Source: Planctomycetota bacterium
GTDB taxonomy: Bacteria > Planctomycetota > Phycisphaerae > WQYP01
NCBI GenBank assembly: GCA_021785435.1
Contig: JAJYFE010000029.1
Coordinates: forward strand, 1-36,727
DNA: 36,727 bases
Direction: 5' to 3'
Positions 24,657 to 34,628 of this stretch are shown here, piece after piece (the stretch's first letter is position 1; every line of letters starts with the position of its first letter). Made by a program: the position numbers and the translations under genes. The notes under the pieces were generated by a model, which was given only the letters and a program-made list of their open reading frames with translations, ran no database searches and was not told the DNA's origin.

Positions 24657-24935
24657 CCAAGGCCTATAGCGCCTTCCGATCGCCATTTTCCCCAAGCCGG
24701 TTAAGGCACAGCGCAGACCCATCCCAAGGGGGCGGGAAACGGCCGCGCCGGGCTGGCCTGACCAGAAGGCCATTCCCGGCCCGCGCCGGGAGATGGCGCG
24801 CATTCCACGGACCGCCCCCGCCCCGCCGGCCGGCCCCCGCGCCCCGCCATGCGCCGCTCGGGCGCGATGCCAGGCCGCGGTTTAGTTCCTCGAAGCCGCT
24901 TTCCAAACGGCCGGGGTTGGGCTAATCTTGTGGTC

Positions 24936-27314
24936 ATGCCATTCGGGGAATCAGATACACGCGCCAAGTTGATTGATCCGGCGATACACGCGCGGGGCTG
25001 GACGGAGAACCTGATTCGCCGCGAGGAGACCGCCGGGGCCATTGAAATTGTTGACGGCAAGCCCCGCAAGCGCGCCAAGGGGCGGGTTGATTACACACTG
25101 CGCATCGCGGTGAACGCCGAATCCCAGCCGGTCGCTGTGGCGCTCATTGAAGCCAAGGCGGAAAATCTGCCGCCCGGCCATGGCCTGGAGCAGGCCAGGC
25201 AGTACGCCTCCTGCCAACGGCTGAATGTGCCGTTCGCCTTTTCGAGCAATGGCCACCTGTTCGTCGGATTCGATGCGCTTAGCGGCAAGACCAGCGCCCC
25301 TAAGCCGCTGGCGGAATTCCCCACGCCGGCCGAGCTGCGAACGCGTTACGAGAAGGCCCGGGGCTTTGCGCTGGACTCGCCGGCGGCCCGGCCGCTGCTG
25401 ACGCGCTACGCCGGCGGCGAGGCGACGCGGCGGTACTACCAGGATGCGGCCATCCGGGCGGTGCTGGAAAAAATCGCACGCGGCGAAAAACGCGCCCTGC
25501 TCACCCTGGCCACGGGCGCCGGCAAAACCTTTATCGCCGTCCACCTGCTTAAGCGCATCGCCGACGCCGGCCAATTGCGCCGGGCGCTATTTGTATGCGA
25601 CCGCGACGAATTGCGCAGCCAGGGGCTGGGTGCGTTTCAAAATGTGTTCGGGGCGGATGCCGCCGAGGCGTACCGGGAGCCGGATGGCTCGAACCACGCC
25701 CGCAATGCCCGCATCCACGTCGCCACCTACCAGACGCTGGATGTGGACACCGAGGAGGGCACGGCCAACTTTCTGAGCACGTTCTATCCGGAAAATTATT
25801 TCAGCCATATCATCATCGACGAATGCCATCGCTCGGCCTGGGGCAAGTGGTCGCAGGTGCTTACGCGCAATCCGGGGGCTATCCAGATCGGCCTGACGGC
25901 CACGCCGCGTAAGATCGAGGTCACCGAAAAGAGCCGCGAGGCCGTCGCCGATCAGCAGATTAACGCCGACAACCTTAAGCACTTCGGCGAGCCGGCCTAC
26001 GAGTATGACATGGCCCAGGGGATCGAGGACGGCTACCTGGCCGCGTGCGAAATCCATCGGGTGGATCTTTTTCTCGGCAATAAGGCCAAAAGCGAGCGCG
26101 TGACCGGCGTCCTGCGTGAAGACCTGGAGGGTAAAAAGCTTACTGATGCCGATACGGGGGCACTTATCGCCGCCGATGATGCGCGCCCGTATTATGCCGC
26201 ATCCGATCTGGACGACAGGCTCTTGATGCCGGAGCGCGTCGCGGCCATGACGCGCCACCTGTTCGAGCAGCTGCGCGCCACCGGCGGGCCGGAACAAAAG
26301 ACCATTATTTTCTGCGCCCGGGACCGCCATGCCGATGATGTGGCCGCGGCGATGAACAATCTTTACGCCGACTGGTATGATAAAAATAACTGGCCGCGCG
26401 GCGAGCCTTACGCCTTTAAATGCACGGCGAGCGTGGGCGGGGCGCAATACCTGGCCGACCTGCGCGGGGCCTCGCGCTCATATTTCATCGCCACCACGGT
26501 GGACCTGCTGACGACCGGCGTGGATGTGCCCGCGGTGCAGAACATTGTCTTCTTCAAATACGTACGCTCGCCGATTGCGTTTTACCAGATGGTGGGTCGC
26601 GGTACGCGGCTTAATGCCGCCACCGGCAAGTTGATGTTTCGCGTTTATGATTTCACCAACGCCACGCGGTTGTTCGGCGAGGAGTTTAAGGGCCAGTGGC
26701 AGCCGCGCCAGGGCAAGAGCGGCCCAGGGCCGTCGCAGCCGCCGGAGCCGACGCTTCAGGTTCAGGGCTTCGATGTGCGCGTGACCGATGCCGGGCGCTA
26801 TATCCTCACGCAGGTGGATGGCCGGGCGATGCCCGTCACGGTGGAGCAGTACAAGCAGCAGCTGGCGGCGCGGCTCGTCGCGGAGGCGCCGACGCTTGAG
26901 CGGTTCCGCGCCCGCTGGATTGCGCCGCCGGAGCGCCGTAAGCTGCTGGACCGCCTGCCGGGTGCGGGGCGCTCGGCATTGCTGGTGCGCAGCCTGGAGG
27001 AGATGGAGGCTTACGACCTTTACGATGTGCTCGCCGAGCTTGGCTACGGCCTGGCCCCGCGGACGCGCGTCGGCCGGGCCGACGCGTTTGCCTACAAGCA
27101 TGAACGCTGGCTGGCCGGCTTACCCGCCCCGGCGGCGAATACGCTTAAAGCGATGGCCCGGCAGTTCGCCTGCGCCGGCACGGATGGCCTGGAAAATCCG
27201 GAAATATTCCAGACCCCCGAAGTGGCCCAGGCCGGCGGCTTGGGTGCGCTTAGGGCCTTGGGCAGACCGGCGGACATTTTGCGCGAAACCAAGGCGAGGA
27301 TGTTCGCGGCATGA
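24936..27314 (+). CDS. hsdR: Type I restriction endonuclease subunit R (EcoEI-R-C type)
   Basis: 'LLTLATGAGKTFIAVHLLKRI' Walker A, 'HIIIDECHRSAWGKW' DEAD-like box, 'LTATPRK', 'DLLTTGVDVPAVQNIVFFKYVRSPIAFYQMVGRGTRL'; start 24936 chosen as 'MPFGESDTRAKLIDPAIHARGW'. Confidence 0.93.
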   Translation: MPFGESDTRAKLIDPAIHARGWTENLIRREETAGAIEIVDGKPRKRAKGRVDYTLRIAVNAESQPVAVALIEAKAENLPPGHGLEQARQYASCQRLNVPFAFSSNGHLFVGFDALSGKTSAPKPLAEFPTPAELRTRYEKARGFALDSPAARPLLTRYAGGEATRRYYQDAAIRAVLEKIARGEKRALLTLATGAGKTFIAVHLLKRIADAGQLRRALFVCDRDELRSQGLGAFQNVFGADAAEAYREPDGSNHARNARIHVATYQTLDVDTEEGTANFLSTFYPENYFSHIIIDECHRSAWGKWSQVLTRNPGAIQIGLTATPRKIEVTEKSREAVADQQINADNLKHFGEPAYEYDMAQGIEDGYLAACEIHRVDLFLGNKAKSERVTGVLREDLEGKKLTDADTGALIAADDARPYYAASDLDDRLLMPERVAAMTRHLFEQLRATGGPEQKTIIFCARDRHADDVAAAMNNLYADWYDKNNWPRGEPYAFKCTASVGGAQYLADLRGASRSYFIATTVDLLTTGVDVPAVQNIVFFKYVRSPIAFYQMVGRGTRLNAATGKLMFRVYDFTNATRLFGEEFKGQWQPRQGKSGPGPSQPPEPTLQVQGFDVRVTDAGRYILTQVDGRAMPVTVEQYKQQLAARLVAEAPTLERFRARWIAPPERRKLLDRLPGAGRSALLVRSLEEMEAYDLYDVLAELGYGLAPRTRVGRADAFAYKHERWLAGLPAPAANTLKAMARQFACAGTDGLENPEIFQTPEVAQAGGLGALRALGRPADILRETKARMFAA

Positions 27315-27979
27315 CGAAGGCGACGAGAGAAATTCCGGCCGAGAACGCGGATATGGCGAGGGCCGGCCTGCCTGACGGCTGGCGCTGGGTGAAGCTGGGC
27401 GCGTTGGTTTCCCTGGCGCAGCATGGCTTTGCGACCGGCGAACGCGACGCGGGCGGTGTTATCCAGGTCCGCATGAACAACGTCACCACGCTTGGGCAGT
27501 TCGACTGGGCCTCCCTCACCCGGGTGCCCGCGGATCCCGAATTGGTCGAGCGCTACCGACTGCAAGCGGGGGATGTACTCTTCAACAACACGAACAGCGC
27601 CGAGTTGGTTGGCAAGACGGCGCTTTTCGACGGCCACGATGAGCCGGTCGTGTTCAGCAACCACTTTACGCGTGTGCGCGCGAATCCCGAGGCGCTTAAT
27701 CCCCGCTTCCTTGCGCTGTGGCTCCAGCAGCAGTGGCAAAGCGGGGCCTTCGCCGCGATCTGTAACCGCTGGATTGGGCAATCGGCAATCCAGCGGCCTA
27801 AACTGCTTGCGCTTGAAATTCCTCTTCCCCCGCTGGCGGAGCAGAAGCGCATCGCGGAAATTTTGAAAGAGCAGATGGCCGCGACCGAGCAGCTGCGCCG
27901 GGCCTTGGCCGAGCAACTGGAAACCATCAACAAGCTGCCCGCCGCGCTGCTGCGCGAAGCATTCACCGGCGGCCTGTAG
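27311..27979 (+). CDS. hsdS: Type I restriction specificity subunit, single-TRD (half-length)
   Basis: 'LPDGWRWVKLGALVSL', 'QSAIQRPKLLALEIPLPPLAEQKRIAEILKEQMAATEQLRRALAEQLETINKLPAALLREAFTGGL'; ATGA overlap with hsdR; only 222 aa with one TRD and one coiled-coil. Confidence 0.92.
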   Translation: MTKATREIPAENADMARAGLPDGWRWVKLGALVSLAQHGFATGERDAGGVIQVRMNNVTTLGQFDWASLTRVPADPELVERYRLQAGDVLFNNTNSAELVGKTALFDGHDEPVVFSNHFTRVRANPEALNPRFLALWLQQQWQSGAFAAICNRWIGQSAIQRPKLLALEIPLPPLAEQKRIAEILKEQMAATEQLRRALAEQLETINKLPAALLREAFTGGL

Positions 27980-28018
27980 TCGCTACGAGCCCTTTGGCGT
28001 ATTCCATCGGAGGTCGAA

Positions 28019-28797
28019 ATGAGTCCGACAGCCCAGGGGACGATGACGATACCCGAGTTTACGATCCAAACCGCCTCGCAATTTGTGGCGCAAGTTGCGA
28101 ATACTAAAAGGGATCAGTTGGCGAAGGGGAACAAATCGGACCTCCTGTTCCGGGGACAACCGTGCGACAAACCGCTGCTTCCGAGGCTTGGGCGAGGCAG
28201 GTAAAGGGAAAGCTCCCGAAAGTGGAGCAGCTCCTGCTTACGGAGTTTAGCCGCCCGAGCCTGCCTTTCCGCGAGTTCGAGCCTGCGGACGAATGGGACC
28301 TTCTGGCCCTCGCCCAACACCATGGGGCGGCGACACGCCTGTTGGACTGGACCCGCAGCGCCCCCGCGGCGTTGTGGTTCGCCGTGCGAGGTCCGCCCCT
28401 AAGGACGGACGACGGAAAACGGCTCCACAATGGCGTCGTGTGGGTACTTTGTCCCCTCGTGGAGGACTTTCGGCAGGGGGTGAATCGCGAGAACCCCTTC
28501 GAGAATAAATCGCGGACCCTGATATTCAGGCCGAAGGCCGTTTCGCGTCGAATAGTCGCTCAGTCAGGTGTTTTTACAGTCCACAAAATCATTGATGGCG
28601 GACGGTTTGTCCCGCTTGAGCGGAATTCGCGCTATAAGAGTAAATTGGTTAAATTGATAATTCCGGCAACACAGTTCTCTAACCTTCGAAAGGATCTCGA
28701 CATGCTGAACGCGAACGCGGGGTTGCTGTTTCCCGATCTCGATGGGCTCGGGGAGTACCTGACGTGGAGGTTTACCAAATTTAAAGATGAGCAGTAA
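28019..28797 (+). pseudogene. FRG domain protein split by an apparent frameshift
   Basis: Frame a (28019-28204) 'LLFRGQPCDKPLLPRLGR' and frame b (open 28162-28797) 'KGKLPKVEQLLLTEFSRPSLPFREFEPADEWDLLALAQHHGAATRLLDWTRSAPAALWFAV' together form one FRG domain; GGAGG before ATG 28019. Confidence 0.8.
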
Positions 28798-28881
28798 TTT
28801 AGCGCGGCGCGCGAAAGGGCAAATGGGGACGCCGGGAGAGTCGCCCGCCGCTTTGCCGCGTGAAGCGTTATCGGGGAGATT

Positions 28882-29193
28882 ATGAAAACAATCGTGGATT
28901 GCTTTGGCCACCGGGTCCGGCTCACGGGCGAGCGCCTGGCCCATATCCTGGAACATCCGGAAATGGGGGCCATGGCGGCGGAGATTGAGTCTGTGTTGCG
29001 CCGGCCACAATTGGTGCGGCTTTCGCGTTCGGATGAGGCCGTGCGGTTGTTTTACGAGTTTTACGCCCATACGATGGTAGGTGGCAAGTGGCTATGCGTT
29101 GTGGTCAAATATGACGATGACGATGCGTTCGTGGTCACGGCTTATTTGACCGACAAACCGAAGCCCGGAGAGGATTTATGGCCGCCAAGGTAA
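28882..29193 (+). CDS. Putative PBECR2-like nuclease-fold protein (toxin candidate)
   Basis: 'FGHRVRLTGERLAHILEHPEMGAMAAEIESVLRRPQLVRLSRSDEAVRLFYEFYAHTMVGGKWLCVVVKYDDDDAFVVTAYLTDKPKPGEDLW'; adjacent to DUF2283. Confidence 0.6.
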   Translation: MKTIVDCFGHRVRLTGERLAHILEHPEMGAMAAEIESVLRRPQLVRLSRSDEAVRLFYEFYAHTMVGGKWLCVVVKYDDDDAFVVTAYLTDKPKPGEDLWPPR

Positions 29194-29387
29194 AGCTCTG
29201 GTACGACGCGGAGGCGGATTTTCTGGAAGTCCGGTTTTCCGACGCCGCCGGCTATGAAAAAGCGACCCGGCACGACGCCGTTATGCGGCGCGTGGACACC
29301 CATGGCAAGGTGATCGGCTTTAGCGTGATGGGCGTGAGCCGCTTTAAGAAGGCCAAGCCGCTGAAAGCAGATTTGGCGGCGGCTTGA
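29178..29387 (+). CDS. DUF2283 domain-containing protein (antitoxin candidate)
   Basis: 'KLWYDAEADFLEVRFSDAAGYEKATRHDAVMRRVDTHGKVIGFSVMGVSRF' DUF2283-like; overlaps the upstream gene by 16 nt. Confidence 0.85.
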   Translation: MAAKVKLWYDAEADFLEVRFSDAAGYEKATRHDAVMRRVDTHGKVIGFSVMGVSRFKKAKPLKADLAAA

Positions 29388-30919
29388 TGCCTGTTAACCA
29401 CAAACGCCACGCCACGCAGCAGTCGGTCAACAGCGCCATCAAGGCGATCTGCGACATCATGCGCCGGTCCAATTGCGCCGGGGCGCTGCAATATGTGCCG
29501 GAACTGACCTGGATTCTGTTCCTGCGCATCCTCGATGAGCGCGAAACGCACGAGGCGGAAGCCGCCGAGGCCGTCGGCGCCGAGTTCGCGCCCTCGCTGA
29601 AGGCCCCCTATCGCTGGCGCGACTGGGCCGCGCCGGGCGGCGCAAAACGCAAGGCGCTCGAAAGCGGCGCCTTGGGCGCCTTCTTCGGCTTCGTCAACGG
29701 CGAATTGATCCCACATCTCAAAAAATTGCGCGAGCGCCCCAACGCCGCGGCGCGCCAAAAAGTGATCAGTGAAATCTTTTCCGGTGTCGAACGTACCCGC
29801 ATCGACACGGAACGCAATTTCCTGGATGTGTTGGACAAGGTCCACGAAATCAGCGCCCAGACGGTAGATCCGACGCACGTGTTCACCCTGTCGCAGGTGT
29901 ACGAGGGATTGCTGCTGAAGATGGGAGAGAAGGGCAATGACGGCGGCCAGTTCTTTACGCCGCGGGAGATCATCCGGGCCATGGTGCGGGTGATCGACCC
30001 GAAAATCGGCGAGACGGTTTATGACCCCGGCTGCGGCACCGGCGGGTTTCTGGCCCAGTCGTTCGAGCACATGGCCGGGCCGAATAACTCGAAGATCAGG
30101 TCAGCCGACCAACTGGAAACGCTCAAACACCGGACGTTTTTTGGCCGGGAAAAGGACAATGCGATTTACCCCATCGCACTGGCCAACCTGGTGCTGCACA
30201 ATATCGACGAGCCGCACCTCTGGCACGGCAATACGCTCACCGGCGCGGAGACCTACGGCGGGCTGTTTCAGGATGCGCCGCCATTGCATGATGTGGTGCT
30301 CATGAATCCGCCCTTCGGTGGCAAAGAAGGCAAAGACGCCCAAACGCGATTCGCGTACAAGACCGGCGCCACGCAGGTGCTTTTTCTGCAGCACGTGATG
30401 GACAGCCTGAAGCCGGCCGGCCGCTGCGGCATCGTGTTGGATGAAGGCGTATTGTTCCGCACCAACGAAACGGCGTTTGTGCAGACCAAGCGCAAGCTGC
30501 TCGACGATTGCGATTTGTGGTGCATCGTAAGTTTCCCCGGCGGTGTATTCACCGCAGCGGGCGCGGGCGTGAAGACCAATCTGCTTTTCTTCACCAAGGG
30601 TCGGCCAACGGAAAAGATATGGTATTACGATCTGTCGGATATCAAGGTCGGCAAGCGAACGCCGTTCCTGCTGGAGCGGTTCGACGAATTTTTCCGGCTG
30701 CTGCCGGAACGCGGCGAGAGCGAACGGAGCTGGACGGTTACGCGGACGCAGATCGAAGCGAAAAATTACGACCTCAAGGCGGTGAACCCGAACCGCAATA
30801 GCACCGAGGACACGCGTACGCCGGAGGAATTGCTGGCGGTAATCGAGGCAAAAGGCAAAGAAGTGGCGGTGGCGCTGGAGGCACTGAGGGTGATTTCGCC
30901 GGCGACGGCGCGCGAGTGA
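29387..30919 (+). CDS. hsdM: Type I restriction-modification DNA methyltransferase subunit M
   Basis: 'DPGCGTGGFLAQSFEHM' motif I, 'MNPPFGGKEG' motif IV; ATG 29387 overlaps the DUF2283 stop (TGATG). Confidence 0.95.
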   Translation: MPVNHKRHATQQSVNSAIKAICDIMRRSNCAGALQYVPELTWILFLRILDERETHEAEAAEAVGAEFAPSLKAPYRWRDWAAPGGAKRKALESGALGAFFGFVNGELIPHLKKLRERPNAAARQKVISEIFSGVERTRIDTERNFLDVLDKVHEISAQTVDPTHVFTLSQVYEGLLLKMGEKGNDGGQFFTPREIIRAMVRVIDPKIGETVYDPGCGTGGFLAQSFEHMAGPNNSKIRSADQLETLKHRTFFGREKDNAIYPIALANLVLHNIDEPHLWHGNTLTGAETYGGLFQDAPPLHDVVLMNPPFGGKEGKDAQTRFAYKTGATQVLFLQHVMDSLKPAGRCGIVLDEGVLFRTNETAFVQTKRKLLDDCDLWCIVSFPGGVFTAAGAGVKTNLLFFTKGRPTEKIWYYDLSDIKVGKRTPFLLERFDEFFRLLPERGESERSWTVTRTQIEAKNYDLKAVNPNRNSTEDTRTPEELLAVIEAKGKEVAVALEALRVISPATARE

Positions 30920-31011: not shown

Positions 31012-32262
31012 ATGGCTGAGTTCTACCTGCGCCCGCCGCCGGGGGCCGAAGCGCTGACGAAATTTGTTAAAGCATGCGCGGAGGCCCTTCCCACAGCGCG
31101 GTTTGAATCGCTGGACGTTACGACCAACATCTCCGAGCCGAACGCCCACCTGCACATCGGCGGGGGGCAGCCTGGGGCGTGGGCGCAACAGGCGGCGGCC
31201 CTGGAAAAAACCTTGCGGGAGTGCGCTTTCTGCTACTGCACGCGCATCCGGGCGGTGGCAGGCCGCAATTCGCAAACGGTCATCGAGTACGTCCTCGAAA
31301 ACAATAAGCTCGCCGCCAAGGTCGTATTCTCCGGCGTGGAGGGAATGGCGACGAAGGCGGATCCCATTGCTCTGGCTGACAGCCTGAATCGCGAGTTCGC
31401 CTTTTGCCGCCCGGAGGAGATATTCATCGGGGCGCTGCCGGAGGCGCAGCAGCAGCAGCTCCGCGCCTACGACCGCGCAATCTCCGACCTGACCACCCAG
31501 GCGGCAGAGATGCACCGGATGGCCGGTGAGCTCGAGCTCCAGCAGGCGGAACATTTCCGGAAGCGGCAGGAGGAGATGGATGGGGAACTCGCGGCGAGGA
31601 GGAGGGGGCTGCAGGAGGAACACGACCGGGCCATGGCGGAGGTAAAGGAGCGAGAGTCTGCCCACCAGAGGAAGGTGGAGGATTTTGAACTGCGGGAAGG
31701 CACAGCGGTCCGGCGTGACCTGGCAAAGAAGCTGCGGGAGGAGATAGCGAAAAGCCCGGCCGTCGAGATATCGCGTTCCGCACGGAGACCCAGGTGGACC
31801 GTACACGGAGTTTGTCTCGTCGTGCTTGTGCTGTCGGCTGCCCTCGCGGCCGGGGCTTACCGGGCCTTTCTCGCCGGCGCGCTGCCGGCGACGACGGCCT
31901 ACCCGGCGCTGGCCGGCGCCATGGTGATCTTCGGGAGCACGCTCTGCTTCTACCTCCGCTTCAACTACATCTGGGCGGACAGGATGGCGCAGGCGGAGCT
32001 TACGGCCCGCAAATACGCCAGCGATTTCAAACGGGCCGACTGGCTTACGGAACTGATTTGTGAATATGCCGCCGACGGAAAGCGGGAATTCCCGCCAGAG
32101 GTCGCCGCGCGACTCGCGCACGGCCTCTTTGCGGATGTGCGCTGGGGCAGGCAAAACCTGCACCCCGGCGAGGACATCGTCGATCTCGCCAGTCGTATGA
32201 AGAAGCTGAAGGTGGCCAGGGACGGGGTCGAGATCAGGCTGGGGGGCGACGGGGCGCCGTGA
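31012..32262 (+). CDS. Hypothetical coiled-coil membrane protein (two predicted TM helices)
   Basis: 416 aa; heptad-like 'QQQQLRAYDRAISDLTTQAAEMHRMAGELELQQAEHFRKRQEEMDGELAARRRGLQEEHDRAMAEVKERESAHQRKVEDF', then 'VHGVCLVVLVLSAALAAGAY' and 'YPALAGAMVIFGSTLCFYL'. Confidence 0.75.
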   Translation: MAEFYLRPPPGAEALTKFVKACAEALPTARFESLDVTTNISEPNAHLHIGGGQPGAWAQQAAALEKTLRECAFCYCTRIRAVAGRNSQTVIEYVLENNKLAAKVVFSGVEGMATKADPIALADSLNREFAFCRPEEIFIGALPEAQQQQLRAYDRAISDLTTQAAEMHRMAGELELQQAEHFRKRQEEMDGELAARRRGLQEEHDRAMAEVKERESAHQRKVEDFELREGTAVRRDLAKKLREEIAKSPAVEISRSARRPRWTVHGVCLVVLVLSAALAAGAYRAFLAGALPATTAYPALAGAMVIFGSTLCFYLRFNYIWADRMAQAELTARKYASDFKRADWLTELICEYAADGKREFPPEVAARLAHGLFADVRWGRQNLHPGEDIVDLASRMKKLKVARDGVEIRLGGDGAP

Positions 32263-32342
32263 CGGCCCCCGGGTCCGCTCGACCTCGTGGCCGGAGGAGG
32301 GCGCCCCGTCGCGCCGGGAAAATCAGGCTATCTGGCGCGTCG

Positions 32343-32531
32343 CTACGCCCCATCAAAATACCCCAGCTCCCGCAGTGACGCATAATCCTTAGTCCGGTCG
32401 GTGGTGGCCTGGCCGAGAACGATGTGGTCGAGCACATCAATCTTCATGAGTTTGCCGGCGTTGATAAGTTCGCGGGTCAGCTTGATGTCGGCTTCGCTGG
32501 GCGCGGGGTCGCCGCTGGGGTGGTTGTGCGC
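32343..32531 (-). pseudogene. Duplicated 3' end of radC (63 codons)
   Basis: 189-bp direct repeat of 33687-33875 with 7 mismatches by hand alignment; encodes 'AHNHPSGDPAPSEADIKLTRELINAGKLMKIDVLDHI..GQATTDRTKDYASLRELGYFDGA*'. Confidence 0.95.
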
Positions 32532-32872
32532 TACCCTGCATTATCGCTTACAGGAGTAAGGTCCGGAGGCTTCGGATAATGATTTAAGACTTTGGCAATT
32601 GAATCTACCAGGCCCTTCAGGTGTCCCACCGATATCTGAAACCTGACCATCTCGCTCACGAACTCGGGCGTCATAGAAAAACACCGGAGTGTTGCGGTTC
32701 CATCCGACCGAATTGCAACCTCTATGTTATCAACCCACAGCAGCGGTAAAAGAGGGTTGACTATCCGGGACGGTGTTGGAACTGTCGCTGTATCCGACGT
32801 CGGGGGCACCGGAGACAGTGGCCTGTTCGGTATAGGTCGCTTCGCTGCAGTTTTGGGTTTCTTTCTGATCAT
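32531..32872 (-). CDS. Hypothetical protein, DUF3467-like
   Basis: 'VDNIEVAIRSDGTATLRCFSMTPEFVSEMVRFQISVGHLKGLVDSIAKVLNHY'; overlaps the XRE gene out of frame. Confidence 0.5.
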   Translation of the reverse strand: MIRKKPKTAAKRPIPNRPLSPVPPTSDTATVPTPSRIVNPLLPLLWVDNIEVAIRSDGTATLRCFSMTPEFVSEMVRFQISVGHLKGLVDSIAKVLNHYPKPPDLTPVSDNAG

Positions 32873-33212
32873 AAATCATTTTCTCCACACGCGGGGCCGA
32901 ATCAAATTTATACACTTGGCACCCAACGTTGCCGTATGTCGCGTCTGCCTCGGCAAGTCTCACTTTTACACCAAGCGCAAGGAATGCTCGTCCCGCAACG
33001 TCAAAGGTACAGTTTGAAGATGAATGAATGAGGCGCGTAATAAATGGCGGCTTTACTCCCATCGCCCGCGCCAGTTGACTTTGCGTCCAATTTTTCCCGT
33101 CTAGGTGGCGCAAGATTATTTCTGCCAGATCGTTGCGCAGATCAAATCCCACTGATTGTGGGCTTTGATCGAATTTGCGCAGGTCATTGAGCAAGTCTTG
33201 GATACCGCTCAT
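32730..33212 (-). CDS. XRE-family HTH protein (putative antitoxin)
   Basis: 'LAEIILRHLDGKNWTQSQLARAMGVKPPFITRLIHSSSNCTFDVAGRAFLALGVKVRL'. Confidence 0.85.
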   Translation of the reverse strand: MSGIQDLLNDLRKFDQSPQSVGFDLRNDLAEIILRHLDGKNWTQSQLARAMGVKPPFITRLIHSSSNCTFDVAGRAFLALGVKVRLAEADATYGNVGCQVYKFDSAPRVEKMIYDQKETQNCSEATYTEQATVSGAPDVGYSDSSNTVPDSQPSFTAAVG

Positions 33213-33606
33213 CTGCCGCCTTCCTCCATAACCTATTCTTCCTTACGTTGCCTACCTCGTTAATACATTCACGATCCCTGGCGGTAAGTTTTTGCCCATG
33301 TTTAAGGCGCACGTGGATCGCGATAAAATCCTTCTTCGTTCTATCTTCGTAAAAACCAATAATTCTCACCAGGCTAAATTGAAACCCGATGCGGTACACC
33401 CCATCCCATTCACAGGTCACTATCGGTTTGCTACCACGTTCGCACATATCGAAGCCGACATTGCAACACCATCGTAACTTGCTAAGAAATCGGCCTTCGA
33501 TAACCCCCTTGGTGCGAAAATCTTTAAAATCACCCAATGCTTTGGCTGACAGCCATAAGCGCGTTTTACGATTCTCACCCAACCGCAATTCGGTTATTTC
33601 ATACAT
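33184..33606 (-). CDS. RelE/HigB-like putative toxin
   Basis: Directly upstream of and overlapping the XRE gene by 29 nt; 'YRIGFQFSLVRIIGFYEDRTKKDFIAIHVRLKHGQKLTARDRECINEVGNVRKN' resembles RelE/HigB-type toxins. Confidence 0.55.
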   Translation of the reverse strand: MYEITELRLGENRKTRLWLSAKALGDFKDFRTKGVIEGRFLSKLRWCCNVGFDMCERGSKPIVTCEWDGVYRIGFQFSLVRIIGFYEDRTKKDFIAIHVRLKHGQKLTARDRECINEVGNVRKNRLWRKAADERYPRLAQ

Positions 33607-33610
33607 GGTA

Positions 33611-33639
33611 TTTTAACTTAAAAGTTAACCCAGGTCAAG
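33611..33639 (-). promoter_or_regulatory. TA promoter with operator inverted repeat in the spacer
   Basis: Minus strand TTGACC - 17 bp - TAAAAT, with inverted repeat TTAACTT-AA-AAGTTAA (33614-33629). Confidence 0.7.
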
Positions 33640-33686
33640 AAGCCGAAAAAATTTAGTGTATACCAAATTCAGACCGAACCTATCGG

Positions 33687-34628
33687 CTACGCCGCATCAA
33701 AGCACCCCAGCTCCCGCAACGACGCATAATCCTTAGTCCGGTCGGTGGTGGCCTGGCCGAGGATGATGTGGTCGAGCACATCAATCTTCATGAGTTTGCC
33801 GGCGTTGATAAGTTCGCGGGTCAGCTTGATGTCGGCTTCGCTGGGCGCGGGGTCGCCGCTGGGGTGGTTGTGCGCCAGGATAATGGCGGCGGCGGAAGCG
33901 GAGATCGCGGCTTTGAAGACCTCGCGGGGATGCACCAGGATGGTGTCGAGCGTGCCTTGCGAGACCTGCTCAATGCGGATCAGACGGTGGCGCGTATTCA
34001 GAAGGATGATCCGGAAGGTCTCCACATCTTTGCCGCGGTTCTGGTCGCGCAAGAGCCGGGCGATGGCCGCGGGGCTATCGAGAACAGGCGATTCGTGTTG
34101 AAGCTCTTCGGCCATCCTGCCGGCCAAGGCAAACGCGGCCACCAGCGTGACCGCTTTGGCCCGGCCGATGCCGCGCACACGCCGCAGATCATCCACCGAG
34201 GCCCCAGCCATGGCCGCCAGTGAGCCAAACTTCTGGAGCAGCTGTCTGCCGATGTCGGCGGCATTGGCGCCCGGCAGACCGGTTCGGACCAGAATGGCGA
34301 TAAGCTCGGCGGAACTAAGCGCCGCGGCGCCGCGTTCCATGAGCCGCTCGCGGGGCCGTTCAGCTAAGGGCTGGTCCCGCAGCCGACTGCTCGGGCTGGA
34401 ATCGCCCGACGGACGCTCATAGGTCGTCACTTTTTTCCATTCTCCCGCGGAGGCGGACAGATCAGGTTGGCTGCGGGAGGCGTCGGCATGCTTGCGCAGC
34501 CTCCCGCCGGCTTCACGGTTAAGAAACGCGGAATCTGGCGGCGGCATGGCAAAAATTCTACCGCAGGCCAGGGGCGGGAACAACGGAGATAGAAAAGGCC
34601 GCACTGCTTCCCACAGCCATAAGTTCAA
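33687..34628 (-). CDS. radC: DNA repair protein RadC (JAB domain)
   Basis: 'RPRERLMERGAAALSSAELIAILVRTGLPGANAADIGRQLL', HhH 'RRVRGIGRAKAVTLVAAF', 'AHNHPSGDPAPSEADIKLT'; true start may be downstream (e.g. 34547). Confidence 0.95.
   Translation of the reverse strand: MNLWLWEAVRPFLSPLFPPLACGRIFAMPPPDSAFLNREAGGRLRKHADASRSQPDLSASAGEWKKVTTYERPSGDSSPSSRLRDQPLAERPRERLMERGAAALSSAELIAILVRTGLPGANAADIGRQLLQKFGSLAAMAGASVDDLRRVRGIGRAKAVTLVAAFALAGRMAEELQHESPVLDSPAAIARLLRDQNRGKDVETFRIILLNTRHRLIRIEQVSQGTLDTILVHPREVFKAAISASAAAIILAHNHPSGDPAPSEADIKLTRELINAGKLMKIDVLDHIILGQATTDRTKDYASLRELGCFDAA

Follow-up and report, generated by a model that had tools for sequence, protein, structure and literature searches.

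How did three small genes come to lie between an intact radC gene and a second copy of that gene's own 3' end? The arrangement occurs in the window, by which we mean the whole 36,727-nt stretch of planctomycetal DNA that was analysed, and it raises the further question of whether the radC end serves as an entry point for such cargo.

The duplicated 3' end of radC

Repeat search and alignment identified a direct repeat of 190 nt, identical at 183 of 190 positions (96%), with a start-to-start distance of 1,344 nt (Table 1). The repeat spans the region from the JAB motif of radC (AHNHPSGDP), where it begins in radC direction with GCG CAC AAC CAC (Ala-His-Asn-His), to one base past the stop codon. 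Its mismatches lie at positions 112, 114, 156, 157, 173, 174 and 182 in radC direction; all seven fall within the stop-proximal 79 bases and none in the first 111. Such clustering has a chance probability of P = 0.0018 when counted by site, and of 0.011 if the five changed codons are taken as five events. The first-pass annotation of this DNA had described a 189-bp repeat with seven stop-proximal mismatches, flanking a 1.15-kb insert that holds three minus-strand genes and no integrase, leaves radC intact and ends with a stop codon at the repeat boundary. This description held throughout, the repeat being one base longer than claimed and the stop codon of gene 3 including the first base of copy B. 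A chance origin of the repeat was ruled out, as 190 bp at 96% identity is far too long.

Table 1 Positions of the radC copies, the insert genes and neighbouring features in the window.
Feature	Position	Strand	Basis
Repeat copy A: 3' end of intact radC, JAB motif to stop plus one base	33686..33875	-	Repeat search and alignment
Repeat copy B: orphan radC 3' end, 62 codons plus stop	32342..32531	-	Repeat search; second radC match in protein search
Intact radC, 313 aa	33687..34628	-	ORF; Pfam RadC E 2e-42, UPF0758_N E 1e-24
Predicted cassette promoter/operator: TTGACC box and palindrome TTAACTTTTAAGTTAA	33613..33640 (approximate bounds)	-	Conserved before gene 1 in L096, L097 and L166
Gene 1, putative toxin-like, 140 aa	33184..33606	-	ORF; homologues in L096, L097 and L166 at 32-46%
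Gene 2, XRE-type HTH, antitoxin/repressor-like, 160 aa	32730..33212	-	Weak HTH_37/HTH_3 match
Gene 3, conserved third component, 113 aa	32531..32872	-	Same-place homologues in L096, L097 and L166
Convergent ORF on the copy-B side, 416 aa	31012..32262	+	ORF; one homologue elsewhere among 298 class genomes

Copy B, when translated, is 94% identical to radC residues 251-313, and its reading frame is intact and without decay. At the variable codons, relatives back copy B twice (a Tyr codon, TAT, and a CTG codon) and copy A once (an ATC codon). This evidence is too mixed to name the ancestral copy, and the split indicates that neither copy is simply a decayed version of the other. Homology between the copies stops at the stop codon, with no common downstream sequence. 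The junction between the insert and the JAB motif has no obvious shared sequence. A second direct repeat, of 31 nt at 84% identity (window 31363-31393 and 33533-33563), is common to the 416-aa ORF and gene 1, possibly by chance.

Could the duplication have been created during assembly? The assembler might have linked a radC locus on linear DNA to a circle bearing the three genes and one radC 3' end, through the 111-bp identity, or it might have merged two strains. The draft assembly comprises 234 contigs, the window being one of them, and 111 identical bases could form a shared node in a short-read graph, from which either pairing of the 3' variants would be possible. We nevertheless consider an artefact improbable. 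The junctions at 32531 (insert/JAB motif) and 33686 (radC/insert) are unique, and assembling them requires genuine reads that cross them. The copies, with seven differences between them, stayed separate in the assembly, and frame-intact radC 3'-end duplications are present in independent genomes too, as described below.

The three-gene insert and its predicted promoter

The insert between the repeats is a foreign cassette, 1,154 bp long, with a GC content of 48% against 62% for the window, and is nearly filled by three overlapping minus-strand ORFs of 140, 160 and 113 aa. No recombinase, transposase or integrase was found in it by inspection of the ORFs or by Pfam and NCBIfam searches. Two kinds of mobile element were considered for the insert and rejected: transposon ends, as no terminal inverted repeats were detected (score 8.0 versus a shuffled mean of 8.5), and a group II intron, as the three ORFs nearly fill the insert and no reverse transcriptase is present.

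Searches of Pfam, NCBIfam, PADLOC, PHROGs and PDB gave no significant match for genes 1 and 3, and their AlphaFold models were too poor for fold comparison (pLDDT 42 and 56, respectively). Gene 2 showed similarity to the HigA and HipB models under their cut-offs (TIGR02607, 19.4 bits with a cut-off of 47.7; HipB, 16.9 with a cut-off of 79). The labels RelE/HigB-like and DUF3467-like, previously attached to the outer genes, were thus not backed by any of these libraries, while the XRE label of gene 2 survived as a weak XRE-type HTH assignment, stopping short of a HigA or HipB identity. Because genes 1 and 3 lack significant library matches and those of gene 2 are weak, the earlier family names are best taken as leads rather than findings.

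The same three genes (hereafter, the trio) were found in the same order in two other genomes of the class (L096 and L097) and in one IMG/VR contig (L166). Judged by this shared order, the trio is a genuine conserved module. Identities between the L166 and window trios are 45%, 62% and 39% for genes 1, 2 and 3, the figure for gene 2 applying to 91 aa. XRE genes also follow the more distant relatives of gene 1 in another family of the phylum. No other trio copy among those examined is adjacent to radC. A tblastn search of plasmids with gene 1 gave no match, and no match of gene 2 in viral contigs was confirmed. In the IMG/VR contig (L166 2354-5085), the trio adjoins a DprA-like gene and a phosphoribosyltransferase-like gene.

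Immediately before gene 1, all four trio copies carry a TTGAC box and the palindrome TTAACTTWTAAGTTAA (TTCACTTTTAAGTGAA in L097). Their conservation is as expected for a putative autoregulated toxin-antitoxin-like promoter. Among viral contigs, the operator pattern was seen in L166 and in no further contig.

Insertions and repeats at radC in other genomes

radC is rare in the source lineage. It is present in 4 of the 28 genomes of the family, including the source genome, in differing contexts, and protein matches were obtained in 23 of the 298 class genomes, several of them weak or partial. The window radC shares about 73-74% identity with its counterparts in three family members and with a Verrucomicrobia radC; outside the family the nearest genes are those of Verrucomicrobia, with up to 73% identity. 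Verrucomicrobia, surveyed with the radC end among the best matches listed, may also contain radC fragments. A second, partial radC copy nearby was found in the source genome alone among the 298, and no other cargo was seen at the radC 3' site in this set. Neither a donor allele nor an empty allele was found among the family and class genomes searched. The lipA neighbourhoods of 13 relatives contain neither radC nor the island, and the variable gene order around lipA meant that no empty site could be delimited. The 416-aa ORF is the probable native neighbour on the copy-B side.

Restriction-modification genes also lie near radC in this lineage. Just left of copy B, the window contains a type I restriction-modification island (24849-30919) consisting of hsdR, a short 222-aa hsdS, an FRG-domain gene assigned by PADLOC to PDC-S15, and hsdM, with two small genes between hsdS and hsdM. 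In three family members (L011, L012 and L013), radC adjoins type I hsdR, and in two of them hsdM as well, in an arrangement unlike that of the window; a conserved AAA/NUDIX-type gene separates radC from hsdR in L012 and L013.

Repeats of the radC 3' end were detected in two of the other radC loci compared (L077 and L092), and a survey of 300 genomes from the order of L077 yielded two more (L101 from G195 and L102 from G299). In all four loci, which are from Bacillaceae, an intact radC is followed by integrase-less cargo and then by a radC 3' fragment. The repeats measure 406 bp at 94% identity in L077, 304 bp at 74% in L092 (just before mreB), 620 bp at 96% in L101 and 192 bp at 100% in L102, and their start positions differ between loci. 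Two are polymorphic-toxin loci beside radC: L101 (1780-4902) has a CdiI-family immunity gene, and the repeat in L102 (1669-4619) surrounds a peptidoglycan-binding toxin-like gene and a putative immunity gene. The first-pass annotation had proposed the radC end as a swap site for minimal addiction cassettes and had suggested looking for cassettes behind radC ends. The proposal fits core radC of Bacillaceae in that similar structures occur there. It was not supported for the source lineage, where the fragment is found in one of 298 class genomes, radC is absent from most family members, and neither an empty site nor another trio copy beside radC was seen.

The Bacillaceae loci also bear on whether the window repeat arose locally. 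radC might have been doubled, with the trio between the copies or inserted into the second, and a deletion of the 5' part would then have left the last 63 codons. Tandem duplication with later deletion likewise yields a truncated copy, and a 225-bp copy of the end of nearby mreD beside the radC repeat of L102 shows that local rearrangements occur. Copy B, on the other hand, is just 190 nt long, frame-intact and undecayed, and its homology with copy A ceases at the stop codon, although tandem duplicates usually have flanking sequence in common. We therefore regard a local origin as improbable.

Other insertions were also observed in radC. In four Bacillales loci (L107, L108, L113 and L116), core radC is split by group II introns at the JAB motif or close to it, with two in L108 (Rfam, searched with the Bacillales loci only), and an intron of the same sort has been reported in Oceanobacillus radC (PMC4424553). 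Moreover, elements of 18-20 kb split Bacillales radC at the Ala/His step of the JAB motif (L103 986-19645; L105 952 to L106 2154). The L103 and L105 elements carry a PF00589 (tyrosine-recombinase-family) gene next to other long genes, together with defence-type cargo. Thus radC has been used repeatedly by mobile DNA, as seen in a survey that took in radC alone.

These elements suggest the main rival to the reading preferred below. The window structure could be the relic or passenger of an element targeting the JAB motif: a recombinase, now lost or supplied in trans, would have integrated a circle at the JAB-motif site, and the trio would have arrived on it together with a replacement radC 3' end, copy B being the native one. 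The start of the repeat lies within about 3 nt of the Ala/His break hit by the L103 and L105 elements, Tn554-like transposons favour one conserved site in radC (PMC3788773, PMC3261861), and radC is intact, as with elements that restore their target. Against such an origin, the insert has no recombinase, Tn554 makes no target duplication (PMC3261861), and the Bacillaceae repeats begin at other positions. Furthermore, a copy A derived wholly from the donor predicts no clustering of mismatches (P about 0.01), barring later gene conversion. On balance, we judge this origin unlikely, yet clearly ahead of the other two alternatives.

Proposed capture by recombination and comparison with known systems

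The best explanation, in our assessment, is RecA-anchored capture with one illegitimate junction, that is, a Kobayashi-type insertion with long target duplication, to which we assign a rough probability of 0.47. The incoming DNA would have originated in a different strain, where the trio immediately followed a near-identical radC. The donor radC 3' end may then have recombined through RecA with the resident radC, the crossover falling in the 111 identical bases or shortly before them, while the other end of the incoming DNA would have been joined illegitimately to the resident JAB motif. Alternatively, the incoming piece may have circularized before a single crossover integrated it. For linear DNA both routes, a homologous anchor with an illegitimate join and a circle with a single crossover, have been described (PMC3240628). 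Either would give an intact hybrid radC with the trio behind it and, beyond the trio, the remaining 3' end of the resident radC. We propose that the trio was retained because it is addictive or defensive, gene 1 being the putative toxin.

Capture accounts for several features: radC is whole, an orphan 3' end is present, an integrase is absent, the mismatches cluster, and homology runs out at the stop codon. A crossover in the identical part is expected to leave the first 111 bases free of mismatches and the differences in the stop-proximal 79, and donor and recipient with different downstream DNA would share homology only as far as the stop codon. Likewise, the varied starts and lengths of the Bacillaceae repeats fit variable illegitimate junctions better than one fixed cassette. 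Three points count against capture. Homology-facilitated illegitimate recombination is rare, at 3x10^-10 per recipient in E. coli experiments (PMC3240628); no donor or empty allele was found among the genomes searched; and the proximity of the repeat start to the site used by recombinase-bearing elements is a coincidence better explained by site-specific insertion.

The radC-end scar suggests that cassettes can be gained through matching gene ends without an integrase of their own. A broader reading, in which small integrase-less toxin/antidote cassettes carrying a replacement radC end dock, across phyla, at the radC 3' end from the JAB motif onwards, is doubtful; if true, cassettes would enter by recombination and leave host radC intact. 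The scar from which a gain of addiction or immunity cassettes without an integrase can be read consists of an intact gene, then cargo, then an orphan 3' end of that gene. Scars of this type are searchable in any genome, and would reveal how frequently homology alone spreads toxin and defence modules. The trio, which has a conserved operator and a conserved third component, would represent an unassigned toxin-antitoxin-like family, and one that is directly testable.

Several known systems resemble parts of the locus. In the Tn554 family (Tn554, Tn558 and Tn6188), radC is likewise the chromosomal target, with Tn6188 reported between bp 540 and 541 of Listeria radC in Listeria numbering (PMC3788773). 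These transposons carry tnpABC, disrupt radC and leave no target duplication, whereas the window has no recombinase, an intact radC and 190 duplicated bp. Minimal mobile elements are recognized by varied cargo between the same flanking genes in related strains, and the 298 class genomes provided no second cargo. HigBA-type (toxin-first) systems share with the trio a toxin-like first gene, an overlapping XRE gene and a promoter palindrome; the window differs in that gene 1 matches no toxin family, the XRE gene falls under the HigA/HipB cut-offs and a third gene is conserved.

Homology-facilitated illegitimate recombination has been proposed for the effector-immunity arrays of the Vibrio type VI secretion system (T6SS; PMC5361080), in which, as would apply to the window, one homologous anchor lies in a conserved upstream gene and resident leftovers stand downstream of the new toxin/immunity genes. 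In the window the anchor would be radC, the cargo a putative autoregulated toxin-antitoxin operon, and the event is inferred from one genome. The Bacillaceae radC-mreB polymorphic toxin-immunity loci (L101 and L102) resemble it in that toxin/antidote cargo without an integrase lies beside an intact radC, with a radC 3'-end repeat beyond the cargo; they belong to another phylum and carry peptidoglycan-binding toxin-like genes, with the CdiI-family gene in L101, rather than an XRE operon.

Insertion with long target duplication was described by Nobusato, Uchiyama, Ohashi and Kobayashi in 2000 for restriction-modification genes of H. pylori, here as described in PMC1643837 and PMC2749054. In that description, selfish-type cargo is bounded at both ends by long direct repeats of the target without a transposase, as in the window, so that the likeness drawn at first reading was apt. 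The window differs in its target, the radC end, and in its cargo, the toxin-antitoxin-like trio, and is known without an empty allele. Its structure is confirmed, and is best read as a variant of insertion with long target duplication that carries an unassigned toxin-antitoxin-like trio.
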